The position numbers and the translations under genes are program-made. A stretch of DNA of 44,197 nucleotides from an uncultured Parabacteroides sp. (GTDB lineage: Bacteria > Bacteroidota > Bacteroidia > Bacteroidales > Tannerellaceae), in contig CASFXH010000024.1 in NCBI GenBank assembly GCA_949298575.1, forward strand, positions 1-44,197, read 5' to 3'. Shown one piece after another: positions 1 to 9,726 of this stretch. A model generated the notes under the pieces. It saw only the letters and a list, made by a program, of their open reading frames with translations. It had not been told where the DNA came from and ran no database searches. Every line of letters begins with the position of its first letter. Positions within the stretch are counted from its first letter, which is position 1.

Positions 1-65
1 GACATGACATCCCAGAGCTTGATAAAAACGTAATTTTTCCATAGTAAAGGTACTGGTTAAAAAAC

Positions 66-172
66 AAAAAGCCTGACTAGGAAGACCAGCCAAGCTACAC
101 AACTCCATAGCCAAGGTGTCGGTCTATTTAAACTATGTCTTGATTTATCCTTTTCCCTTTGTTTTGGGATTA
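66..172 (-). ncRNA. Candidate small RNA, copy A of a tandem element
   Basis: No protein gene fits here. On the minus strand the segment ends in a 10-bp hairpin (arms 86-95 and 71-80, 5-nt loop) followed by five T, an intrinsic terminator. The block from about 40 to 300 is a diverged copy of the block from about 453 to 715. At the place where copy B has its -7 element, copy A has only TTATTTTG (178-185), and its -33 equivalent is TTTT, so this promoter looks weaker or decayed. The predicted RNA is about 105 nt. The family is not one I recognise; function unknown. Confidence 0.35.
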
Positions 173-341
173 CAACGCAAAATAAGCTATAATTCTTGAC
201 ATGAGAAAAGTTTTACATTATGTTTCACAACATGCTTTTAGAACACATTCGTGACAATGAAATCTGAGAGAGGGGAGAGAAAAGGGTAAAAGTGGAATTG
301 TATATGAGCGGGTTTTGACTTTATATTTCCGACATAAATGG

Positions 342-370
342 AGAGGGGGCGCCATAAAGACGTCCCCTCT
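342..370. other. GC-rich hairpin between the two small-RNA-like copies
   Basis: A 10-bp stem (342-351 with 361-370, including one G-T pair) encloses the 9-nt loop CCATAAAGA. No T-tract follows on either strand, so it is not a standard intrinsic terminator. It lies just upstream of copy A on the minus strand. Confidence 0.4.
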
Positions 371-404
371 GGTGTTTATATAGTTATATGTTAAGGTTTT
401 GGGC

Positions 405-419
405 ACGTCATTATGACGT
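405..419. promoter_or_regulatory. Inverted repeat ACGTCATTATGACGT
   Basis: A perfect 7-1-7 inverted repeat lies between the two small-RNA-like copies. Such symmetry suits a dimeric DNA-binding protein, but no regulator gene adjoins it and the role is unknown. Confidence 0.3.
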
Positions 420-478
420 TCGGATCAGGACATTCTGAAAAACGCGATTTTTCATAGTAAAAGTACTGACTAAAAAAC

Positions 479-597
479 AAAAAAGCCTGACTAGGAAAAC
501 CAGCCAAGCTACAGCAACTTCCATAACTAAGGCATCGGTCTATTTAAGTATGAAAAAATATGTCTTTTATTGTCCTATTCGTTTCGTTTTGGAATTA
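479..597 (-). ncRNA. Candidate small RNA, copy B of a tandem element
   Basis: The minus strand shows a promoter-like pair, CTTG (631-634), 20 nt, TAACTTTG (603-610), matching the Bacteroidetes sigma-ABfr pattern. About 100 nt downstream is a hairpin with a 10-bp stem (arms 100-109 in the second line of this block, i.e. 500-509, and 485-494) and a 5-nt loop, followed by six T (479-484). The stem sequence and the T-tract are the same in copy A although flanking bases differ. Predicted RNA about 118 nt. The reading frames across the two copies are not conserved, which argues against a short protein. Confidence 0.42.
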
Positions 598-602
598 CGG
601 TA

Positions 603-634
603 CAAAGTTAGATGCCTTTTTTGAGATGAGCAAG
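603..634 (-). promoter_or_regulatory. Bacteroidetes-type promoter for small RNA copy B
   Basis: Read on the minus strand: CTTG at 634-631, a 20-nt spacer, then TAACTTTG at 610-603. This fits TTTG-N19-21-TAnnTTTG with one mismatch in the -33 element. Transcription would start near 597. Confidence 0.5.
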
Positions 635-812
635 GTTTGACTTTGTGTTTCACAACATATTTTTTTGAAAAAGATCGTATTAATGATGTTTCGTTTTTTA
701 AGGGAGAGCGAGAGAAATGGATTTTGCCAATAAAAGGATTCGTGTTATATTCGCCACTTGAGACTTCGCATCTCAAGTTTTAGGATTATTATTGGCAATT
801 AATATTGGTTTT

Positions 813-1889
813 ATGGCATCGTGGGCGAAAGAGGAGATTACATTGGAGAATGGGGATAAGGCGGTTGCGCAAGTCCCCGTGATTGTCTCGGCGAGCAGGA
901 GTACGGATATTCCCGCTTTCTACGCGGATTGGTTCCTTTATCGGTTGAAAGAGAAAGGTTATTCCGTGTGGACCAATCCGTTCAATGGCGTGAGGAGCTA
1001 CGTGTCATACGCCAATATGCGGTTTATCGTCTTTTGGTCGAAGGATCCTCGTCCCTTGTTGACTTCCGGATTGTTGGACTATTTGGAGGAAAGGGGAATA
1101 GGGTGCTATGTGCAATACAGCTTGAACGACTACGAGGCGGAGGGTCTGGAGAAAGGGGTGAAGCCCTTGGCCTACCGGATAGAGACGTTCCATCAACTCG
1201 TCGAGCGCTTGGGGAAGGGCCGGGTGATCTGGCGGTTTGATCCCCTGATCTTGACGGATGCGTTGGACGAGGAACGGTTGCTCGAGAAAGTACAGCGTGT
1301 GGGCGATCTGTTGCGAGGGCTAACGGAGAAGCTCGTTTTCAGTTTCGCGGATATCGAGGAATATGCCAAGGTCAAAAGTAATTTGAAACGAAATGGCGTC
1401 CCTTATCGGATATGGGAGGCGGGGCGGATGGAAACCTTCGCAGAGCGTCTTTCCCGGATGAACCAAGAAAGAGGTTGGGATTATCAGTTGGCGACCTGTT
1501 GCGAGAAGGTCGATATCGAGCGGTATGGAATCGTCCATAACCGGTGTATCGATGGCGATTTGATCACGAGGATCGCTTGGCGGGATAAGGCCTTGATGGC
1601 GTTCATGAAAGTGGAGATCCAAGAGCTTCAGCCCTCTCTATTCGATACGCCTCAATTGCCAACGGACGCGATCCGGCTGGATGATACCCATTATTTTTAT
1701 AGTAAGCATAAGAAGGACGCGGGACAACGTTCCTTTTGCGGGTGCATGATGGCCAAGGATATCGGGGAGTACAACACTTGCGTGCACTTGTGTGAGTATT
1801 GTTACGCGAATACGAGCAAGGAGGCCGCACGGCGTAATTACGAGGCGCATCGCTTGAATAAGTACGCGGAAACGATTACCGGACGTTAA
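813..1889 (+). CDS. DUF1848 family protein with C-terminal Fe-S-type cysteine cluster
   Basis: This is a 358-residue DUF1848 protein of unknown function. The family start motif SASRSTDIPAFY lies near residue 27. The C-terminus has Cys309, Cys311, Cys323, Cys327 and Cys330. The last three form CxxxCxxC, the pattern that holds the 4Fe-4S cluster of radical SAM enzymes, here at the wrong end of the protein, as is known for this family. I chose ATG 813; an in-frame TTG at 792 would add seven residues but has no better ribosome site. The next gene starts 18 bases after the stop behind a strong AAGGAGGAG, so the two are probably co-transcribed. Confidence 0.85.
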   Translation: MASWAKEEITLENGDKAVAQVPVIVSASRSTDIPAFYADWFLYRLKEKGYSVWTNPFNGVRSYVSYANMRFIVFWSKDPRPLLTSGLLDYLEERGIGCYVQYSLNDYEAEGLEKGVKPLAYRIETFHQLVERLGKGRVIWRFDPLILTDALDEERLLEKVQRVGDLLRGLTEKLVFSFADIEEYAKVKSNLKRNGVPYRIWEAGRMETFAERLSRMNQERGWDYQLATCCEKVDIERYGIVHNRCIDGDLITRIAWRDKALMAFMKVEIQELQPSLFDTPQLPTDAIRLDDTHYFYSKHKKDAGQRSFCGCMMAKDIGEYNTCVHLCEYCYANTSKEAARRNYEAHRLNKYAETITGR

Positions 1890-1907
1890 AAAGGAGGAGA
1901 GTGGAGT

Positions 1908-4900
1908 ATGGCCTTGCGTGTGTTTAAGATATCGAAATATGATCATGCCGCGGAGCGGAAACAATTCGACGCGATCCGGGCGATGCTTGAGGCGAAGTAT
2001 GCCGATCGTACGGATCTTTGCCTGTTGATCGGTAATTACAATATCGAAGGGGTCGAGTTGGATGCGTTTTTGGTGACCACGGGTGGATTCCGGATTTTAG
2101 AGTTTAAGAATTGGGGTGGCCAGATTGTCGCGCGAGAGAATGGCTCCTGGACTTCGGATGGCCTGATTATCGAAGGCGGAGCCGGAAAAAAGACCCCGTA
2201 TGAGCAAATCCGGTTGAATCGGAGTCGGGTGGCGAAAGGGTTGACAGTGTTGTTAGGACAGAAGGTTCAGGCGTTGGGAGCGACCATTATCTTTGGGAAA
2301 AAGGCCCGTATCGATACGACCCAGTTGTCCGAAACGGTCAAGGCGTGGCTTTCCGTATGCGACCACACGCGGCTTTCGGTCCTTTTGGAAAGCCTGAATC
2401 GCCCTGTTTTCGAGGCGGAGTATATTGAGCGGATACCGGCTTTGTTGCGGATAGAGGAATTCGAGGTGACGAAAGAGCGGGGGCAAGAAGAGTCGGCAGC
2501 GCTTTCCGAGGCTTACGATCCGGAGTCGTCCACGAATTTGTTTGAGGACTTGGAGGCGGCTATCCGGCAAGTTCCGGACTATCCGGCCGTTTATCAGGCC
2601 TACAACAGGGTATTCCATAAATGTCTGGATTTGAATACGAGCACGACGAGACTTCATTTTGGTGGGCCTTTCGCCAAGACGGATTACCTGCTGAAGGAAC
2701 ACGGCGCGTCTCGCGAGATGGCGAGGCATACGAACGATACACGGGTCAGACTGAGGAAAAGTAGCAAGCTCCCCGTTCAGGATTTGGAAAAATATTATCG
2801 CCATGACTTGAGGAACCTGTGCGCGTTCATTGCGTTCGTTTATCCGAGAGCCCGGATTCCGGAGGCGCTCTCGGCGCTCTTCCCGAAAGAGGAGCTGCCC
2901 GTGTTCAAAGCGCCGCTTGTCGGAGAGCGGCTACGGGTGCTGGTGGAGCAATGGGACGATCAGTATGTCTATGGGCAATCGGAGGAGTTCGGGGAGGAAT
3001 TGCTTAAGATAGACTATCTGACCAATCGTGCCTATGATTACGATTGGAGCTATTTGAAGAACCTTTTCTATCAAGGCGCCCAGTTGAACTTGGTTCGCCC
3101 TCGCAAGGAGGAGGGAATCCTCTATCCGGAATTGATCGTGTTCGAACCCGACTTTCTGGTGGATATTTCTTCTGTTGCCCGCTGTTTCACGAACTACGCG
3201 GAATCCCCGTTCGTGAACCTCTTGAACAAGATCGCGCCCGTTCAAGCGACAGGCCCGATCCTGTTGGGTAATTTTGCGGGGCAGTTATTGGACGAGGCGA
3301 TCCATCAGTTGCCGGACGAGCAATCGTATGCCCGGAGCGTAAAGGATTTCTATCAAGGCAACGCGCTGAGCCTATTGACAGCGAAAGTCGACGAGCACTT
3401 TCATGACGATGCGCGAAAGCAGAAGCAAAACATCGCCTATGCGCTTTATACAGGATTGCCGAACCACATGAAGCATTTCGATTTGAAAGCGGCGATGGTC
3501 GAGCCTTCCTTCTTCTCTGAGTTGTTGGGTCTCCAAGGCCGTATGGACTATCTGCAACTGGACTTCCGGGTCTTGATCGAGCAAAAGTCCGGGAAGGGGG
3601 AGTTCCCTTATGATAACTATGTCAAGCCTATACAGAAGGAGGAGCATTACGTGCAGCTGTTGCTCTACATGGCGTTGATACGCTATAATTTCCGGGAGAT
3701 TTACGAGCGGAACCAGGAGCTGCACGCTTTCCTTCTTTATTCAAAATACACGGACAGTTTGTTGGGATTGGGATTCGCCCCGAGGTTGATCTTCCGGGCG
3801 ATGAAGATCCGGAACGAGATCGCTTGGACGGAGATCTTGTACGCCCGTCCGTCCGGTTTTCGGATCTTGGAGTCGATCACGCCGGAGAAGATGAACCAAA
3901 AGGAGGCTTCCGGTCGGCTTTGGGAGGATTACCAATCAAAGCAAATCAAGGGCCTGGTGGCCCCAATCCACCAAGCTTCCGAGTTGGAGAGAGCTTATTA
4001 TTTCCGCTTCATGACCTTCATCGCCAACGAGCATTTGCTGTCTAAACTGGGCAACAAGACCAAGGAGAACTCCGGCTTCGCGGCGAAATGGTATGATTCC
4101 TTGGAGGAAAAGCTACGGGCGGGCAATATCTATTGTGGCTTGAAGCTTGCCTCGCCGAACGACCAGACGGAAGGGGAGATTAAGTCCGTAACGCTGCATT
4201 TCTCGGAGACGAAGGATAACGATATGTCCAATTTCCGCGTTGGGGATATCGTGATCCTTTACCCCTATAATCCGGGCGAGGAGCCTGACGTGCGGACGAC
4301 CATGGTGTTCCGCTGCACGATCGAGGACTTGCGAATCGATACCATCCAATTGGCGTTGCGGGCCACGCAGTCCGATGGGCGGGTGTTCAAGCGGGAGGCG
4401 GGGAAATTGTGGGCGATCGAGCACGACTTCCTGGACTCCTCCTACAGCTCGCTCTATCGGGGGATGCACGCGTTCCTGTCGGCACCCCAGGAGCGTCGCG
4501 ACTTGTTGCTCTTCCAGCGAGCACCCGAACGCGACCAGTCGCTCGCGTTGAAGGGGGATTATGGCGCTTTCAACGAGCTGGCCTCGCGGGTGAAAAGGGC
4601 GAGGGATCTTTTCCTGATCATTGGTCCTCCGGGAACGGGCAAGACCTCCTATGGCCTCTTGAACACGGTGAAGGAAGAGTTGCTGGAGCCGAAGAGCAAC
4701 ATCCTCCTGATGGCCTATACCAATCGGGCCATCGACGAGATTTGCGGCAAGCTGGTGGCGGAAGGGATCGACTTTATCCGGATCGGGACGACATTGGGGT
4801 GTTCGCCAGCCTATCGGGAACATATGCTCAGCGCCCAGGTCCGGGACTGCGCGAAGATGGAGGAGTTGCGGCAAAAGCTGCTCTCAACACGGGTCTTCGT

Positions 4901-6803
4901 GGGGACGACGACCGCGCTGAACGCCAACCTCTCTCTTTTCCAATTGAAGTCTTTTAGCTTGGCGGTGATTGATGAGGCTTCCCAGATCTTGGAGCCGCAT
5001 TTGATCGGCCTGTTGAGCGCCCACCGGGAGGAGGGCCCGGCCATCCGGAAGTTCGTCTTGATTGGCGATCACAAGCAACTGCCCGCGGTGGTGCAGCAGA
5101 AGCCGGACGTCTCGCGAGTACAGGACGCCCTGTTGAATGAGATCTTGTTGACGGATTGCCGCCTCTCCTTGTTCGAGCGGTTGCTCAAGAAATACAGGAA
5201 CGACAAGGACCTGACTTATATGCTCACCAAGCAAGGACGGATGCACCACGACATCGCCCTTTTCCCCAATTATACCTTCTATAATAACGCCCTCGAGGAA
5301 GTGCCCCGCCCCCACCAAAACCGGGTGTTGCCAGCCTTGGGGATGGGTAAGAATGGCATCGTCGACCTGCTCACCACCCGACGCGTCGCCTTTATCGCCG
5401 CCAGGAACCCGGAAGCGTCTTCCTCCTCCGATAAGGTCAATCAGGTGGAGGCGGATATCATCGCCGCGACGGTCGTGAAAATCTATGAGATCGAGAAGGA
5501 AAGTTTTGATGTCAATGAGACCGTGGGCGTGATCGTCCCCTACCGCAACCAGATCGCGACCATCCGCAACACGATCGACAAATACGGCATCCAGGCCTTG
5601 CACGACATCACGATCGACACGGTGGAGCGTTATCAAGGCTCCCAGCGGAAATACATCATCTATGGCTTCACGATCCAGAAATATTACCAGCTGGACTTCC
5701 TGACGAACAACGTCTTCGAGGACGCGGATGGCACGGTGGTCGACCGCAAGCTCAACGTGGCCATGACGCGGGCGGAGGAGCACTTGCTGATGGTCGGCAA
5801 CCCCGAATTGCTCTCGAACAACTTCACCTTCTTCAAGCTCATCGAGTTCGTCCGCAGCCGGCAGGGCTATTTTGAGGTGGAAAAGGACAACTACGTGGCG
5901 GGCCGCTTTGAGGTGCCGGAATACGAGCGAGTGGAGGCCTTCGACTTGAGCCAAGCCATTTACACCACCACACGCGAGTTCAACGCCGCCTACGAGCGCC
6001 ACGTGCTCCAGCCCGTCAAGGAGGGCTCGGGCGAGGAATGGCCCGCGAAGGTCTTTGGCTATGACATGCCCACGAACCTGAACGCCATTGGCTATGGCCG
6101 CGTGAACTTCTCCAACCAGATTACCCTCTTCGACGACGTCGCGATGAGCCCCGAGCGGCAGGTGCTGCTTTATTGTTATTACATCATGCGCCAACACTAT
6201 TGCAGCGCCAAGAACTTGTATGAGAGCTTTGGCGCCTGGACACGTGCGCTGATCCGCTCCGTGGACGGCCGCGTACGGATGATCGATATCGGTTGTGGCC
6301 CGGCGACATGCGGCCTGGCCTTCGCCGAGATCTTCTTGCCCGACGCCCCGAACATGGTCTATACGGGTGTTGACATCTCGGCGGCGATGAAGCGGATGGG
6401 CGCGCGGCTGCTCGACGACCGCTTCCAAGGGCGTTTGCGCTACCGGATGGTCGAGTCGTTCGCCGCGCTCGACGAGGCGTATTGGGCGGGGTGCTCGGAG
6501 CTCCCCTCGCTGGTCGTCCTGAACTTGTCCTATTTCTTCTCCAACATCACGGCACGTTTCGCCGAGCGGCTCGCCCAGCGGATCAACGACGTCATGGCGC
6601 GTTATCCGCTCAACCACTATGTCATTTTCGTCCAGCACTCCGACGTCGACCGGCAATTGAACACCTACAAGGTCTTCGCGGACATCCTGGCCCCACGTGC
6701 GCGGGTGGTCAAGCGGGAGAGGGCCTCGTTCGCCTACATCTTGAACTACAAGGAGCGGACGTTGCCCTTCTGCTTCGACATATATAATAATGCATACATA
6801 TAA
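1908..6803 (+). CDS. NERD / PD-(D/E)XK nuclease / SF1 helicase / methyltransferase fusion protein
   Basis: A 1631-residue multidomain protein. Residues 1-115 resemble a NERD nuclease domain (E50, D52, E65xK67 in EFKNWGG). Residues about 455-620 hold a Cas4/Dna2-like PD-(D/E)XK nuclease (D547 in GRMDY, E558xK560 in IEQKSGKG), without the cysteines of the Dna2/Cas4 Fe-S cluster. Residues about 880-1310 are a UPF1/Dna2-type SF1 helicase: Walker A GPPGTGKT 906-913, DEAS 1022-1025, GDHKQLPA from 1053, ERYQGSQ 1240-1246, AMTRAEEHL from 1285. Residues about 1440-1631 look like a class I SAM methyltransferase (DIGCG from 1460, GVDIS from 1487). It likely acts on nucleic acid ends. GC content rises along the gene. 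A defence role is inference; a repair role is equally possible. Confidence 0.85.
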   Translation: MALRVFKISKYDHAAERKQFDAIRAMLEAKYADRTDLCLLIGNYNIEGVELDAFLVTTGGFRILEFKNWGGQIVARENGSWTSDGLIIEGGAGKKTPYEQIRLNRSRVAKGLTVLLGQKVQALGATIIFGKKARIDTTQLSETVKAWLSVCDHTRLSVLLESLNRPVFEAEYIERIPALLRIEEFEVTKERGQEESAALSEAYDPESSTNLFEDLEAAIRQVPDYPAVYQAYNRVFHKCLDLNTSTTRLHFGGPFAKTDYLLKEHGASREMARHTNDTRVRLRKSSKLPVQDLEKYYRHDLRNLCAFIAFVYPRARIPEALSALFPKEELPVFKAPLVGERLRVLVEQWDDQYVYGQSEEFGEELLKIDYLTNRAYDYDWSYLKNLFYQGAQLNLVRPRKEEGILYPELIVFEPDFLVDISSVARCFTNYAESPFVNLLNKIAPVQATGPILLGNFAGQLLDEAIHQLPDEQSYARSVKDFYQGNALSLLTAKVDEHFHDDARKQKQNIAYALYTGLPNHMKHFDLKAAMVEPSFFSELLGLQGRMDYLQLDFRVLIEQKSGKGEFPYDNYVKPIQKEEHYVQLLLYMALIRYNFREIYERNQELHAFLLYSKYTDSLLGLGFAPRLIFRAMKIRNEIAWTEILYARPSGFRILESITPEKMNQKEASGRLWEDYQSKQIKGLVAPIHQASELERAYYFRFMTFIANEHLLSKLGNKTKENSGFAAKWYDSLEEKLRAGNIYCGLKLASPNDQTEGEIKSVTLHFSETKDNDMSNFRVGDIVILYPYNPGEEPDVRTTMVFRCTIEDLRIDTIQLALRATQSDGRVFKREAGKLWAIEHDFLDSSYSSLYRGMHAFLSAPQERRDLLLFQRAPERDQSLALKGDYGAFNELASRVKRARDLFLIIGPPGTGKTSYGLLNTVKEELLEPKSNILLMAYTNRAIDEICGKLVAEGIDFIRIGTTLGCSPAYREHMLSAQVRDCAKMEELRQKLLSTRVFVGTTTALNANLSLFQLKSFSLAVIDEASQILEPHLIGLLSAHREEGPAIRKFVLIGDHKQLPAVVQQKPDVSRVQDALLNEILLTDCRLSLFERLLKKYRNDKDLTYMLTKQGRMHHDIALFPNYTFYNNALEEVPRPHQNRVLPALGMGKNGIVDLLTTRRVAFIAARNPEASSSSDKVNQVEADIIAATVVKIYEIEKESFDVNETVGVIVPYRNQIATIRNTIDKYGIQALHDITIDTVERYQGSQRKYIIYGFTIQKYYQLDFLTNNVFEDADGTVVDRKLNVAMTRAEEHLLMVGNPELLSNNFTFFKLIEFVRSRQGYFEVEKDNYVAGRFEVPEYERVEAFDLSQAIYTTTREFNAAYERHVLQPVKEGSGEEWPAKVFGYDMPTNLNAIGYGRVNFSNQITLFDDVAMSPERQVLLYCYYIMRQHYCSAKNLYESFGAWTRALIRSVDGRVRMIDIGCGPATCGLAFAEIFLPDAPNMVYTGVDISAAMKRMGARLLDDRFQGRLRYRMVESFAALDEAYWAGCSELPSLVVLNLSYFFSNITARFAERLAQRINDVMARYPLNHYVIFVQHSDVDRQLNTYKVFADILAPRARVVKRERASFAYILNYKERTLPFCFDIYNNAYI

Positions 6804-6820
6804 TAAGGTAGGGGAGACCG

Positions 6821-7459
6821 TCACGCGCCGGGGCTTTTCAGCACGTAGACCTTGTGCGTCCCCCAGCCGGAGGTGCCGATCCCGCTGTCCGGCGTCTCGC
6901 TCCATCGCTTGAGCTCCTTGCCGGCCGCCCCCCGGCCGAGCCCGGTGATGGCGCAATAGGCGCCGATGTTCATCGTCTGGTGGAGGGCGAGGTACTTCTT
7001 CGCCTGCGCCAGTCGCTCCTCGGGCGTGTAGCGCGAGACGTGGCGCGCGCTCTTCTTCTTCGAGCGCTCCAGCCGGCAGAGCCTGTCCGTCTCGCGGATC
7101 AGCTCCTTGTCGGCCCGGAAGTTGATGTTGCCTACCTTGATGCTCATGGCGTTGCGTTTCGTCCCGCTGCCGTCCGCGCGCTCCCGCTCCTTGCCTTCCT
7201 TCAGCTCGAGGGCGGGGGTGAAGGTCCCGATGCCGTCTATCTTCACCGGCCTTCCCTGGGCCATCATCCAACTCATCCAGCTGGTCATCTGGAGGATAAT
7301 GCCCTTGACTTCGCCCACGCCATAGGTCGAGCCCGCCGCCACCCGCTCGGCCAATTCGGTCAGGCAGCAGCGTTCCTGGAGCTCCATGCGGGGGTAAAGC
7401 AGCGTCTTGCCCTCGTTGTTGAGGTCGTTCATCTCTTGCATAAAATACTTAGCGCTCAT
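6821..7459 (-). CDS. HU-like DNA-binding protein with C-terminal winged-helix-like domain
   Basis: A 212-residue protein of the Bacteroidetes HU-like class. Residues 20-125 fit the HU fold, with a conserved segment around VKIDGIGTFTPALEL near residue 75. A basic linker (RLERSKKKSARH) follows. Residues about 155-210 (NIGAYCAITGLGRGAAGKEL) resemble the small winged-helix unit often attached to such proteins. It would bind and bend DNA; target unknown. It converges on the helicase fusion gene with a 17-bp gap, so the two 3' ends probably share a termination zone. The start is the only ATG giving a full HU domain. Confidence 0.75.
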   Translation of the reverse strand: MSAKYFMQEMNDLNNEGKTLLYPRMELQERCCLTELAERVAAGSTYGVGEVKGIILQMTSWMSWMMAQGRPVKIDGIGTFTPALELKEGKERERADGSGTKRNAMSIKVGNINFRADKELIRETDRLCRLERSKKKSARHVSRYTPEERLAQAKKYLALHQTMNIGAYCAITGLGRGAAGKELKRWSETPDSGIGTSGWGTHKVYVLKSPGA

Positions 7460-7761
7460 CTTCTTTGGGTTTTATACGATTGAAAATTGTTGTCCACGTG
7501 TCGATAAATTATTTACCCCACGGTGAAGTAAATAGATATGCCACGGTAAGTAAGGCTGATCTTTCGCCGCGTGCTTTATAGCCTGCGCCATGTGCTATGA
7601 AAAACGCGGCGCGTGCTTTTTAGCATACGACGTGAATCTAACCTTACCCACCCGCGAAGATAACTTTACTTCACGGCATAGGCAAGTTTTTAGGCTTGCG
7701 TGGGTGATCTTTTTTAGCGAGGGAGGGGTGGGGGAAGGGTGTCCATGAAATAGACCTCGGC
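7460..7761. other. Gene-free stretch with short repeats
   Basis: This divergent intergenic region holds a 10-bp inverted repeat GTGAAGTAAA (7523-7532) and its complement (7665-7674). Between them are imperfect copies of a GCGTGCTTTWTAGC-like motif near 7565-7580 and 7609-7625. No coding signal was seen. The function is unknown. Confidence 0.4.
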
Positions 7762-7793
7762 TTTGGCGGGGAAAAATGTTTTGACTAATTTTG
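7762..7793 (+). promoter_or_regulatory. Consensus Bacteroidetes promoter before the PCMD lipoprotein
   Basis: TTTG (7762-7765), a 20-nt spacer and TAATTTTG (7786-7793) match the sigma-ABfr consensus exactly. Transcription would start near 7800, about 30 bases before the ATG at 7831. Confidence 0.7.
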
Positions 7794-7830
7794 CCTCTCG
7801 ATAAAAATCGATAAAACAAGAATAGATCAT

Positions 7831-8913
7831 ATGCGTAAGAGTTGGTTAGGACTATTGGGCGCGGTCGGGCTATCGCTCACCGCTTGTATCCGCGAGGAGG
7901 CGCCCAACGCGGAGGCGGATATCCTGTCGTGCGTCGTGCCGGGCGACGTGCTGCGGGCCGATCCGGAGATCAGTAACGAGACCGTCTTGCTGTACGTGCG
8001 CTCGGAGGCGGAGGTCGAGGCCTTGGCCCCGGAGTTCACGCTGACGGAGGGGGCGACGATCGTCCCGGCGAGCGGGACGACGCGCGATTTCTCACGTCCG
8101 CAAGTCTATACGGTAACCTCCGAGGACGGGCTTTGGGAAAAGAACTATACCGTCCGCTGCGTGCTGTCGAGCGTGGGGACGTATTATGATTTCGAGCGCG
8201 TGCGGATGGAGCCCCGCAACGGGCGTTTCCAGATCTTCTACGACCTCTTCTCGGGCGACACGATCGACTGGGCCTCGGCCAACGCGGGCTATGCCCTGAC
8301 CGGCATGGCCTCCTCGCCCGAGGAATACCCGACGACCCAATGGCCGGATGGCTATAAAGGCAAATGCGCCCGGCTGGAGACACGCTCGACGGGCACGTTC
8401 GGCGGATGGGTCGGGATGGACTTGGCGGCGGGGAACTTGTTCATCGGCGCGTTCGACGTGGCCAACGCCCTCTCCAACGCCCCCAAGGCGGCCCATTTCG
8501 GGAAACCCTTCGAGCACGTGCCGACCTACTTGAGCGGTTATTACAAGTATCGGGCGGGCGATTGTTATATCCAGAATGGCGAGGCGGTTTCCGGCCGGAA
8601 AGACCAGTGCGACATCTATGCCGTTTTCTACGAGACCGACGAGAACACCCCCTACCTGGACGGCTCGAACGCCTTGACGCATCCGAACCTCGTGGCCTTG
8701 GCCCGGATCACCGACCAGCGGGAATCCGACGAGTGGGTGCATTTCAACATCCCCTTCGTCCGCCAGGAAGGGAAAGAGATCGATGAGGAGAAGCTCCGGG
8801 GGGGAGGTTATCGCCTGGGCGTCGTCTTCACCTCGAGCATAAAGGGCGATTTGTTCGAGGGCGCGGTGGGCAGCACCCTGCTGATCGATGAGGTGGAGGT
8901 CTCTTATGAGTAA
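7831..8913 (+). CDS. PCMD domain-containing surface lipoprotein
   Basis: A 360-residue lipoprotein. The signal peptide ends in LTAC with Cys19, and the following IREEAP is close to the acidic lipoprotein export signal of Bacteroidetes, so surface display is likely. Residues about 30-105 form a small Ig/BACON-like repeat ending in YTVTSEDG. Residues about 115-360 match the PCMD (putative carbohydrate metabolism) domain, beginning YYDFE and ending in LLIDEVEVSYE. The domain is a beta-sandwich thought to bind glycans; no catalytic residues are known. A beta-barrel gene follows after 27 bases, a common pairing. The consensus promoter at 7762-7793 serves both. Confidence 0.82.
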   Translation: MRKSWLGLLGAVGLSLTACIREEAPNAEADILSCVVPGDVLRADPEISNETVLLYVRSEAEVEALAPEFTLTEGATIVPASGTTRDFSRPQVYTVTSEDGLWEKNYTVRCVLSSVGTYYDFERVRMEPRNGRFQIFYDLFSGDTIDWASANAGYALTGMASSPEEYPTTQWPDGYKGKCARLETRSTGTFGGWVGMDLAAGNLFIGAFDVANALSNAPKAAHFGKPFEHVPTYLSGYYKYRAGDCYIQNGEAVSGRKDQCDIYAVFYETDENTPYLDGSNALTHPNLVALARITDQRESDEWVHFNIPFVRQEGKEIDEEKLRGGGYRLGVVFTSSIKGDLFEGAVGSTLLIDEVEVSYE

Positions 8914-8940
8914 AGTAGGAACGAGAAAATAACGGAGCGA

Positions 8941-9726
8941 ATGAAAAGGATCTGTTTGTTATTGATCGCGCTTCTGGGCTTGTCGGCGATGGGCCGGCTG
9001 GAAGCGCAAGAGGAGAGGAACCAGGGAATCATCCTTTCCTCGTTGAGGGGTTTGGAATATTCCGTGAAGGCGGGAGTCAATATCGGCGGGACGACGCCGT
9101 TGCCCTTGCCGCGGGAAATCCGTTCGATAGACGGCTATCGGCCGACGTTGTGCATCTCCATCGAGGGCGATATCAAGAAATGGTTCGGCGAGGAGCGCCG
9201 TTGGGGCATGATGCTCGGTCTCCGTTTGGAGAACAAGGGCATGGAGACGAAAGCGACCGTGAAGAACTACAAGATGGAAATCATCGGGAACGGCGGCGAG
9301 CACCTGAGCGGCTATTGGACGGGCGGCGTCCAGACGAAGGTGAAGAACTCTTATTTCTCGATCCCCGTGGTCGCCTTGTATCGCTTGAACGACCGGATGA
9401 ATTTCTCCGCCGGCCCCTATGTCTCGTTCCTGACGAGTGGCGACTTCTATGGCTACGTCTACGAGGGCTATCTGCGGGAGATCGACCCGACAGGCGTCAA
9501 GGTGGAATTCTCGGGCGATAACCAAGCGTCATACGATTTCTCGAAGGAGCAGCGGAAAGTCCATTGGGGCGTCCAGGTCGGCGCGGAATGGAAGGCGTTC
9601 AAGCACCTGATCGTGTTCGGCGACCTCATTTGGGGGCTGAATGACTTGTTTAAGAAAGACTTCCAGACCATTTCCTTCGCGATGTATCCGGTATACCTGA
9701 ACGCGGGCTTTGGCTATTTCTTTTAA
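8941..9726 (+). CDS. PorT-like outer membrane beta-barrel protein
   Basis: A 261-residue protein with a signal peptide (MKRICLLLIALLGLSAMG, cut near LEAQ) and alternating amphipathic strands. It starts at YSVKAGVNIGG and ends in an aromatic residue (GFGYFF), the usual outer-membrane barrel C-terminus. It fits the PorT-like outer membrane beta-barrel domain. It probably partners the preceding PCMD lipoprotein, as the two genes are 27 bases apart on the same strand. Specific function unknown. Confidence 0.75.
   Translation: MKRICLLLIALLGLSAMGRLEAQEERNQGIILSSLRGLEYSVKAGVNIGGTTPLPLPREIRSIDGYRPTLCISIEGDIKKWFGEERRWGMMLGLRLENKGMETKATVKNYKMEIIGNGGEHLSGYWTGGVQTKVKNSYFSIPVVALYRLNDRMNFSAGPYVSFLTSGDFYGYVYEGYLREIDPTGVKVEFSGDNQASYDFSKEQRKVHWGVQVGAEWKAFKHLIVFGDLIWGLNDLFKKDFQTISFAMYPVYLNAGFGYFF

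Follow-up and report, generated by a model that had tools for sequence, protein, structure and literature searches.

The window analysed here covers positions 1 to 44,197 of contig CASFXH010000024.1 (assembly GCA_949298575.1, an uncultured Parabacteroides sp., a gut bacterium). Two genes lie in tandem on its forward strand. The first (813..1889) starts with ATG and encodes a 358-residue protein of the DUF1848 family (PF08902, E = 1e-81); an alternative TTG start at position 792 would give 365 residues, and homology to the nearest relative, locus L031, begins at 802. The second, directly downstream with 18 bases from stop to start, occupies a frame open for 1631 codons from its ATG (1908..6803) and encodes a fusion protein of 1631 residues. 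Pfam hits, conserved residues and a structure model for this frame bear out a sequence-only reading of the DNA, which had placed four domains with intact motifs on one chain, and refine the domain limits to approximately residues 1-190 (NERD), 400-640 (nuclease), 890-1318 (helicase) and 1345-1631 (methyltransferase). That reading had overlooked the DUF1848 gene directly upstream. A long antisense open reading frame at 4884-7271 was rejected as a shadow of the conserved fusion gene.

The N-terminal NERD nuclease-related domain (residues 1-190; 1908..2477, forward strand) passes the Pfam cut-off (29.3 versus 22.1 bits over residues 36-112, E = 1.4e-6), and its residues D52 and E65-x-K67 are kept in all ten aligned rows. 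It is followed by a Dna2/Cas4-like PD-(D/E)XK nuclease (residues 400-640; 3105..3827, forward strand), whose motifs Q543-G-R-x-D547, E558-x-K560 and Q583-x3-Y587 are conserved in every one of 19 aligned rows (the window's protein among them; 11 rows are long proteins and 8 are short). Pfam Dna2 matches nine of 11 family members (best E = 4.5e-5) and PDDEXK_1 six of 11; the window's second nuclease has PDDEXK_1 as its sole Pfam match, below the cut-off (0.0032), and a profile of this region found no nuclease among solved chains in the PDB. Dna2 enzymes carry Fe-S cluster cysteines that flank the nuclease, one before and three after. Such cysteines were not found here: residues 390-760 of the window's protein contain only C426 and C743, and no cysteine C-terminal of QxxxY is invariant in the nuclease alignment. 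The SF1 helicase (residues 890-1318; 4575..5861, forward strand) shows the motifs GPPGTGKT, DEASQ, GDHKQLP, VERYQGSQR and AMTRA, is assigned to AAA_11/AAA_12 by Pfam (E = 1.4e-23 and 2e-31), and gives the fusion its top solved relative, DNA2 (residues 886-1303, E = 2.8e-23).

The C-terminal part (residues 1345-1631; 5940..6800, forward strand) carries D1460-x-G-C-G-P-x-T, D1489 and N1539-x-S-Y1542 and is predicted to be a class I methyltransferase with a fold nearest METTL17/Rsm22. The AlphaFold2 model of residues 1320-1631 has class I topology (mean pLDDT 79, pTM 0.77; pLDDT below 50 at residues ~1340-1345 and 1384-1403). Among the 50 VIA-align structure matches listed, ranks 1-8 are Rsm22/METTL17 chains from intermediates of mitoribosome assembly, and enzymes with a methyltransferase fold take ranks 9-50. 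Model and matches together support the Rossmann methyltransferase that had been proposed for this region from its motifs. Unlike the fold comparison, the sequence profile fails to single out Rsm22: a PDB profile search with the methyltransferase returned a SAM-dependent methyltransferase (E = 0.015), and adding four distant relatives brought up trans-aconitate 3-methyltransferase (1.8e-4), with RSM22 sixth (E = 0.2). Pfam Rsm22 matches eight of 11 family members, the window's being among those without a match. The Fe4S4 ligands of human METTL17 are C333, C339, C347 and C404 (PMC11046306). The corresponding pattern C-x5-C-x7-C is absent from residues 1345-1631.

The fusion belongs to a real protein family. 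When the genome collection was scanned with the fusion protein by a pattern-based method, 11 loci were returned, nine of which have the four domains in identical order; NERD is missing from L036, and the L041 protein is a short relative. The order recurs in L072, which gives a four-domain set of 11 (window, L031-L035, L037-L040 and L072). Against the nearest relative, L031, dN/dS lies between 0.09 and 0.16 over the part from NERD through helicase and reaches 0.29 in the methyltransferase; the long linkers lie within 0.09-0.29, and a 26-codon linker stands at 0.07. All domains of the fusion are therefore under selection, the methyltransferase more loosely, and the common domain order across loci together with the low dN/dS argues that the four-domain fusion is not a chance product. 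More distant fusion relatives without NERD occur in L073 and L074; the nuclease-helicase-methyltransferase protein of L073 (8989-13041, reverse strand) has lost the glycine-rich SAM motif and is adjoined by neither DUF1848 nor AlkB. Shorter Dna2-like nuclease-helicases of ~1120-1190 residues, without NERD or methyltransferase (L022-L028, L041), are patchy within the genus, being found in six of 24 other same-genus genomes and in one same-order genome, and have no constant neighbour among these loci.

The upstream gene is a regular companion of the fusion. DUF1848 is adjacent on the same strand in ten of the 11 four-domain loci (window, L031-L035, L038-L040 and L072, in the last of which it lies downstream); L037 has no adjacent DUF1848. 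Seven cysteines (C229, C245, C309, C311, C323, C327 and C330) are invariant in 75 of 75 DUF1848 sequences. Three of them form C323-x3-C327-x2-C330 (1779..1802, forward strand), a CxxxCxxC of the radical-SAM type that stands at the C-terminal end of the protein, and the other four would be enough for a second cluster. On this motif we regard DUF1848 as a putative radical-SAM enzyme, and it is probably half of the system. A DUF1848 profile gave no meaningful match to solved structures in the PDB.

The two genes behave as a mobile cassette. In a blastn comparison of window positions 1-9000 with L031, the copy in Candidatus Parabacteroides intestinigallinarum (L021, on the same contig as L031, was dropped), the interval 802..6779 on the forward strand was the sole match, at 93.0% over 5984 columns. 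It runs from 11 bases before the DUF1848 ATG to seven codons before the fusion stop, and the neighbouring genes differ between the two copies. The window's right-hand neighbours (PCMD and OMP) are kept in five same-genus genomes that have no full-length copy (G001, G011, G012, G014 and G015); in the L031 species the PCMD gene and the cassette lie on separate contigs, and the neighbours of the L031 cassette find their best matches in the window's genome on contigs other than the window's. Gene calls came from a greedy open-reading-frame picker that sometimes chose the antisense frame (the PCMD gene of L156, for example, lies on the opposite strand). We infer transfer from the position of the cassette and its sharp ends; identity alone is not the argument, flanking genes being 64% to 92% identical between the two species. 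DUF1848 and the fusion thus form a horizontally moving two-gene cassette, of which the fusion is the larger half. Copies stand among differing neighbours and not only in conserved core loci; homologues confined to such core loci would, by the sequence-only reading's own standard, have spoken against it.

Two observations concern the cassette's surroundings. Just behind it lies a 212-aa gene (6821-7459, reverse strand) whose BLAST-cluster relatives are found near DUF1848 in L079, L080 and L102 (a P. distasonis record), and which may mark a favoured site. Positions 1-812, where the contig begins, have a G+C of 0.36, compared with 0.52-0.56 in the cassette and the rest, and contain short open reading frames only.

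The fusion is rare. The full-length protein occurs in two of 41 near genomes, and a methyltransferase profile matched in three of 393 order genomes and five of 395 phylum genomes, one of them weakly (1.4e-4). Pattern-based scans of IMG/VR with the whole protein and the methyltransferase profile confirmed no viral copy of the fusion, and among plasmids 156 records match it, none spanning 80% of the protein. IMG/VR does contain DUF1848, at seven loci.

DUF1848 genes are commoner than the fusion: PF08902 matches 18 of the 41 near genomes, and a window-type DUF1848 profile matches 48 of the 393 order genomes at 1e-60. Among 51 DUF1848 places, five were already in the set, six were left out and 40 were newly taken. 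With a methyltransferase model built from loci outside these 40, a methyltransferase gene was found within the gene run of DUF1848 in 15 of the fresh loci, compared with two matches among 434 control genes that lie over six genes away from every DUF1848; the two are the very methyltransferases for which L075 and L076 were picked. The gene run lacks a methyltransferase in the remaining 25 loci, a count that includes L138, where the gene picker missed DUF1848, L139, where a methyltransferase-helicase run lies just outside, and some loci that stop at contig ends; the link is therefore frequent and not universal. The methyltransferases of other DUF1848 operons are weakly related to the window's (hhalign probability 61%, E = 8e-5, and 87%, 4e-6, in the SAM-binding part).

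Several arrangements recur among these operons. One runs DUF1848, UvrD-like helicase, ADP-ribosyltransferase/glycohydrolase and methyltransferase (L085, L122, L124 and L125, the third gene of L125 being assigned by clustering only); the ADP-ribosyltransferase and glycohydrolase were identified by Pfam (2CompART/2CompARG) in L085 and by similarity elsewhere, and an operon of this kind in L075 has AlkB in the place that DUF1848 takes in the other four. A second consists of methyltransferase, helicase, a large protein of no known kind and DUF1848 (L084, L091, L137 and L145, with another order in L133), and a third of DUF1848 and a methyltransferase/DEAD-helicase fusion (L086, L087 and L127). In a maximum-likelihood tree of 65 DUF1848 sequences, partner labels need 23 changes versus a shuffled mean of 32.2. 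Well-supported sister pairs carry different partners (L039, with the fusion, and L122, of the ADP-ribosyltransferase type; L085 and L087), which shows that the effector is exchanged while DUF1848 stays.

Other DUF1848 and methyltransferase proteins vary further. A single 891-aa chain in L121 (7493-10168, reverse strand) combines DUF1848, a methyltransferase-model match and BspA-type leucine-rich repeats; the methyltransferase is joined to Sel1 in L110 and L120, and in L110 also to LRR repeats. Two near-identical viral contigs from IMG/VR (L149 and L150) encode DUF1848 followed by an 836-aa methyltransferase-model protein, and another (L153) DUF1848 followed by a UvrD-like helicase. On viral contig L155, a 476-aa protein directly before a divergent DUF1848 was left uncounted, its match to the methyltransferase model being weak (5.6e-8 with the first model, not within 1e-5 with the wider model). 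A second module stands behind the cassette in L035 and L038, with a methyltransferase/DEAD-helicase protein of ~1745 residues (L035:12104-18228 and L038:14915-21043) and a 291-aa protein; in L035, the locus scanned, the former is DpdF-like in PADLOC with a sub-threshold nuclease match, and the latter has weak matches to SMC-like and other defence proteins.

Relatives of the methyltransferase outside the order have a different neighbour. A search by methyltransferase similarity alone found them in G428, G634 and, weakly, G759, and also on three plasmids of Picosynechococcus. In all of these but G759, the gene next to the methyltransferase encodes an AlkB-type 2OG-Fe(II) dioxygenase, and PF08902 has no match in either G428 or G634. 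AlkB, which repairs bases by direct reversal, uses oxygen to remove their methyl groups. Among the 19 loci of the methyltransferase family, DUF1848 adjoins the gene in ten, AlkB in five (about three lineages, the three plasmid proteins being 89-96% alike) and neither in four (L036, L037, L073 and L076). L076 was counted for its family match of 1e-17, and L137 was dropped, its match of 3.5e-7 falling in a different group of methyltransferases. In L127, AlkB (model E = 4.5e-6) is the immediate neighbour of DUF1848. On a Planktothrix plasmid, DUF1848 and AlkB lie one gene apart on opposite strands, with no match to this methyltransferase model. Further AlkB-type relatives were sought in two families, and only the known genomes were recovered (one of 100 and one of 159). 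Besides the three cyanobacterial plasmids, two of 27 plasmid records with AlkB were inspected, from Roseobacter and Streptomyces; in neither does an annotated methyltransferase adjoin the gene, so AlkB does not always travel with the methyltransferase.

On the cyanobacterial plasmids, the methyltransferase-AlkB pair is directly preceded by a P-loop kinase-like protein (L169:3723-9405, L170:5666-9333 and L171:5666-9333; AAA_33 and KTI12 in L169 and L170, which were scanned). On pAQ5, a reverse transcriptase lies three genes before the pair, and an Abi protein and a restriction endonuclease lie further on. The other two plasmids carry the pair near cmr genes, in CRISPR type III-B regions.

The alternation of the two partners may be related to oxygen. 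COX1 is present in three of three genomes with AlkB in the operon (G428, G634 and G355); it was not found in four of four genomes with DUF1848 and no AlkB in the run (G000, G005, G235 and G411), nor in G282, which has neither. This pattern, in a small sample of eight hand-chosen genomes that ignores kinship, is consistent with oxygen users having an oxygen-dependent enzyme and other genomes DUF1848. Radical-SAM enzymes do not need oxygen. DUF1848 would then be the oxygen-independent radical-SAM counterpart of AlkB, serving anaerobes as AlkB serves aerobes, and would erase or oxidize a base methyl group set by the Rsm22-like methyltransferase; this writer/eraser core would be portable across at least four machineries, namely the Dna2-like nuclease-helicase, the ADP-ribosyltransferase/glycohydrolase, the DEAD-helicase protein, and CRISPR type III or reverse-transcriptase loci. 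We offer this proposal tentatively and consider it unlikely.

Several indirect links connect the cassette with defence. In PADLOC, the methyltransferase matches C3a159 (6.3e-10), the NERD part PDC-M16A (2.6e-21) and DUF1848 RTasDUF1848 (5.6e-34). The cassette is patchy and horizontally transferred, as defence systems are. Its neighbourhoods point less clearly in this direction: of nine large neighbour proteins searched (from L034, L037, L039 and L040), seven have no PADLOC match, so the loci of the fusion are for the most part no evident defence islands, the context of that kind being the DpdF-like helicase module in L035 and L038 and, for the cyanobacterial relatives only, CRISPR neighbours. 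From the PADLOC matches, the plasmid pairs near cmr or a reverse transcriptase, the viral loci L149 and L150, the mobility and the patchiness, we give about an even chance to a mobile system against invaders, with the methyl state of a base set by methyltransferase and DUF1848 and acted on by the nuclease-helicase. In such a system, an end or flap of DNA or RNA would be the loading site of the helicase-nuclease, which would unwind and cut it. The methyltransferase and DUF1848 would jointly set or change a base modification: the base would be methylated and the methyl group then removed or changed further, a role that AlkB could play in the related loci. Cleavage might be restricted to material whose state is wrong, or the cell might be shielded from its own nuclease.

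The strongest competitor is accessory repair, in which the nuclease-helicase would process stalled forks or flaps, DUF1848 or AlkB would reverse alkylation and the methyltransferase would have a regulatory or RNA role, with no part in defence. DNA2 as the closest solved relative and the direct-reversal enzyme adjoining the methyltransferase in five of 19 loci agree with it. However, such a patchy presence (two of 41 and three of 393 genomes) and exact cassette transfer are not what repair would lead one to expect, a methyltransferase beside a dealkylase makes little sense for pure repair, and related pairs occur in CRISPR type III-B regions; we consider this account unlikely. Improbable in our view is a scheme of damage and cure, in which the methyltransferase would make a toxic lesion on RNA or DNA of invader or host, DUF1848 or AlkB would be the antidote, and nuclease and helicase would deliver or clear the target. 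It draws on the same five AlkB neighbours and on the sister operon L085, where writer and eraser likewise occur together as an ADP-ribosyltransferase and its glycohydrolase, but in loci of the window's type the methyltransferase and the nuclease-helicase share one chain, and DUF1848 is also found with no methyltransferase nearby.

The sequence-only reading had suggested that the methyltransferase could mark self, and in the sense of classical restriction-modification this part of it is not supported. DNA amino-methyltransferases have (N/D/S)PP(Y/F/W) as motif IV, and Type ISP enzymes combine a nuclease, an SF2 translocase, an amino-methyltransferase and a target-recognition domain in one polypeptide. 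A Type ISP-like system, with methylation protecting self DNA while nuclease and helicase cut unmethylated DNA, would share the single chain of nuclease, helicase and methyltransferase, but is highly improbable given an SF1 and not SF2 helicase, a motif IV of N1539-x-S-Y1542 and not of NPPY type, no target-recognition domain among the Pfam hits, a nearest fold of METTL17/Rsm22 and a DUF1848 partner in ten of 11 loci.

If the anti-invader reading is true, the cassette would represent a mobile machinery for processing nucleic acids in which a single chain links base modification with a helicase and two nucleases. It would offer an initial hypothesis on what DUF1848 does and open to experiment the question of how anaerobes could manage in the absence of AlkB, and the methyltransferase-AlkB and methyltransferase-DUF1848 pairs would be a lead on the methyltransferase in CRISPR type III regions. 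The arrangement had been unfamiliar to the sequence-only reader, and the literature searched (without most subscription papers and without bioRxiv as a collection) contained no description of the fusion or of DUF1848 systems and no paper naming DUF1848.

Among known systems, Dna2-type enzymes (Pfam Dna2, PF08696, plus SF1 helicase), which unwind and cut flaps, are the closest in plan: PD-(D/E)XK motifs precede an SF1 helicase on a single chain, and DNA2 is the nearest PDB relative through its helicase part, whereas the fusion adds NERD and a methyltransferase, lacks the Fe-S cysteines, and is accessory and mobile. METTL17/Rsm22, linked to ribosomal RNA, shares its fold with the predicted model of the window's methyltransferase, which differs in being fused to a nuclease-helicase and in lacking the Fe4S4 cysteine pattern. 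From Type ISP enzymes the fusion is set apart by another helicase superfamily, another methyltransferase class and its DUF1848 partner. Mokosh MkoA and other SF1-helicase defence proteins are alike in the helicase part (MkoA, E = 1.6e-46, residues 893-1304), yet Mokosh features a kinase or PLD domain, which was not found in either cassette gene (Pfam, E 0.01), and the window's cassette has other nucleases and another partner. Similarity to the PADLOC families RTasDUF1848, RTasNERD-Hel (in the DRT group) and C3a159 (methyl transferase) is seen for the window's DUF1848, its methyltransferase and a sister-operon helicase (1.7e-14); the window's operon differs in having no reverse transcriptase or CRISPR effector, while the reverse transcriptase three genes before the methyltransferase on pAQ5 recalls the RT-linked families. 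The component families are known; the four-domain chain, its pairing with DUF1848 and the exchange of AlkB and DUF1848 look new.
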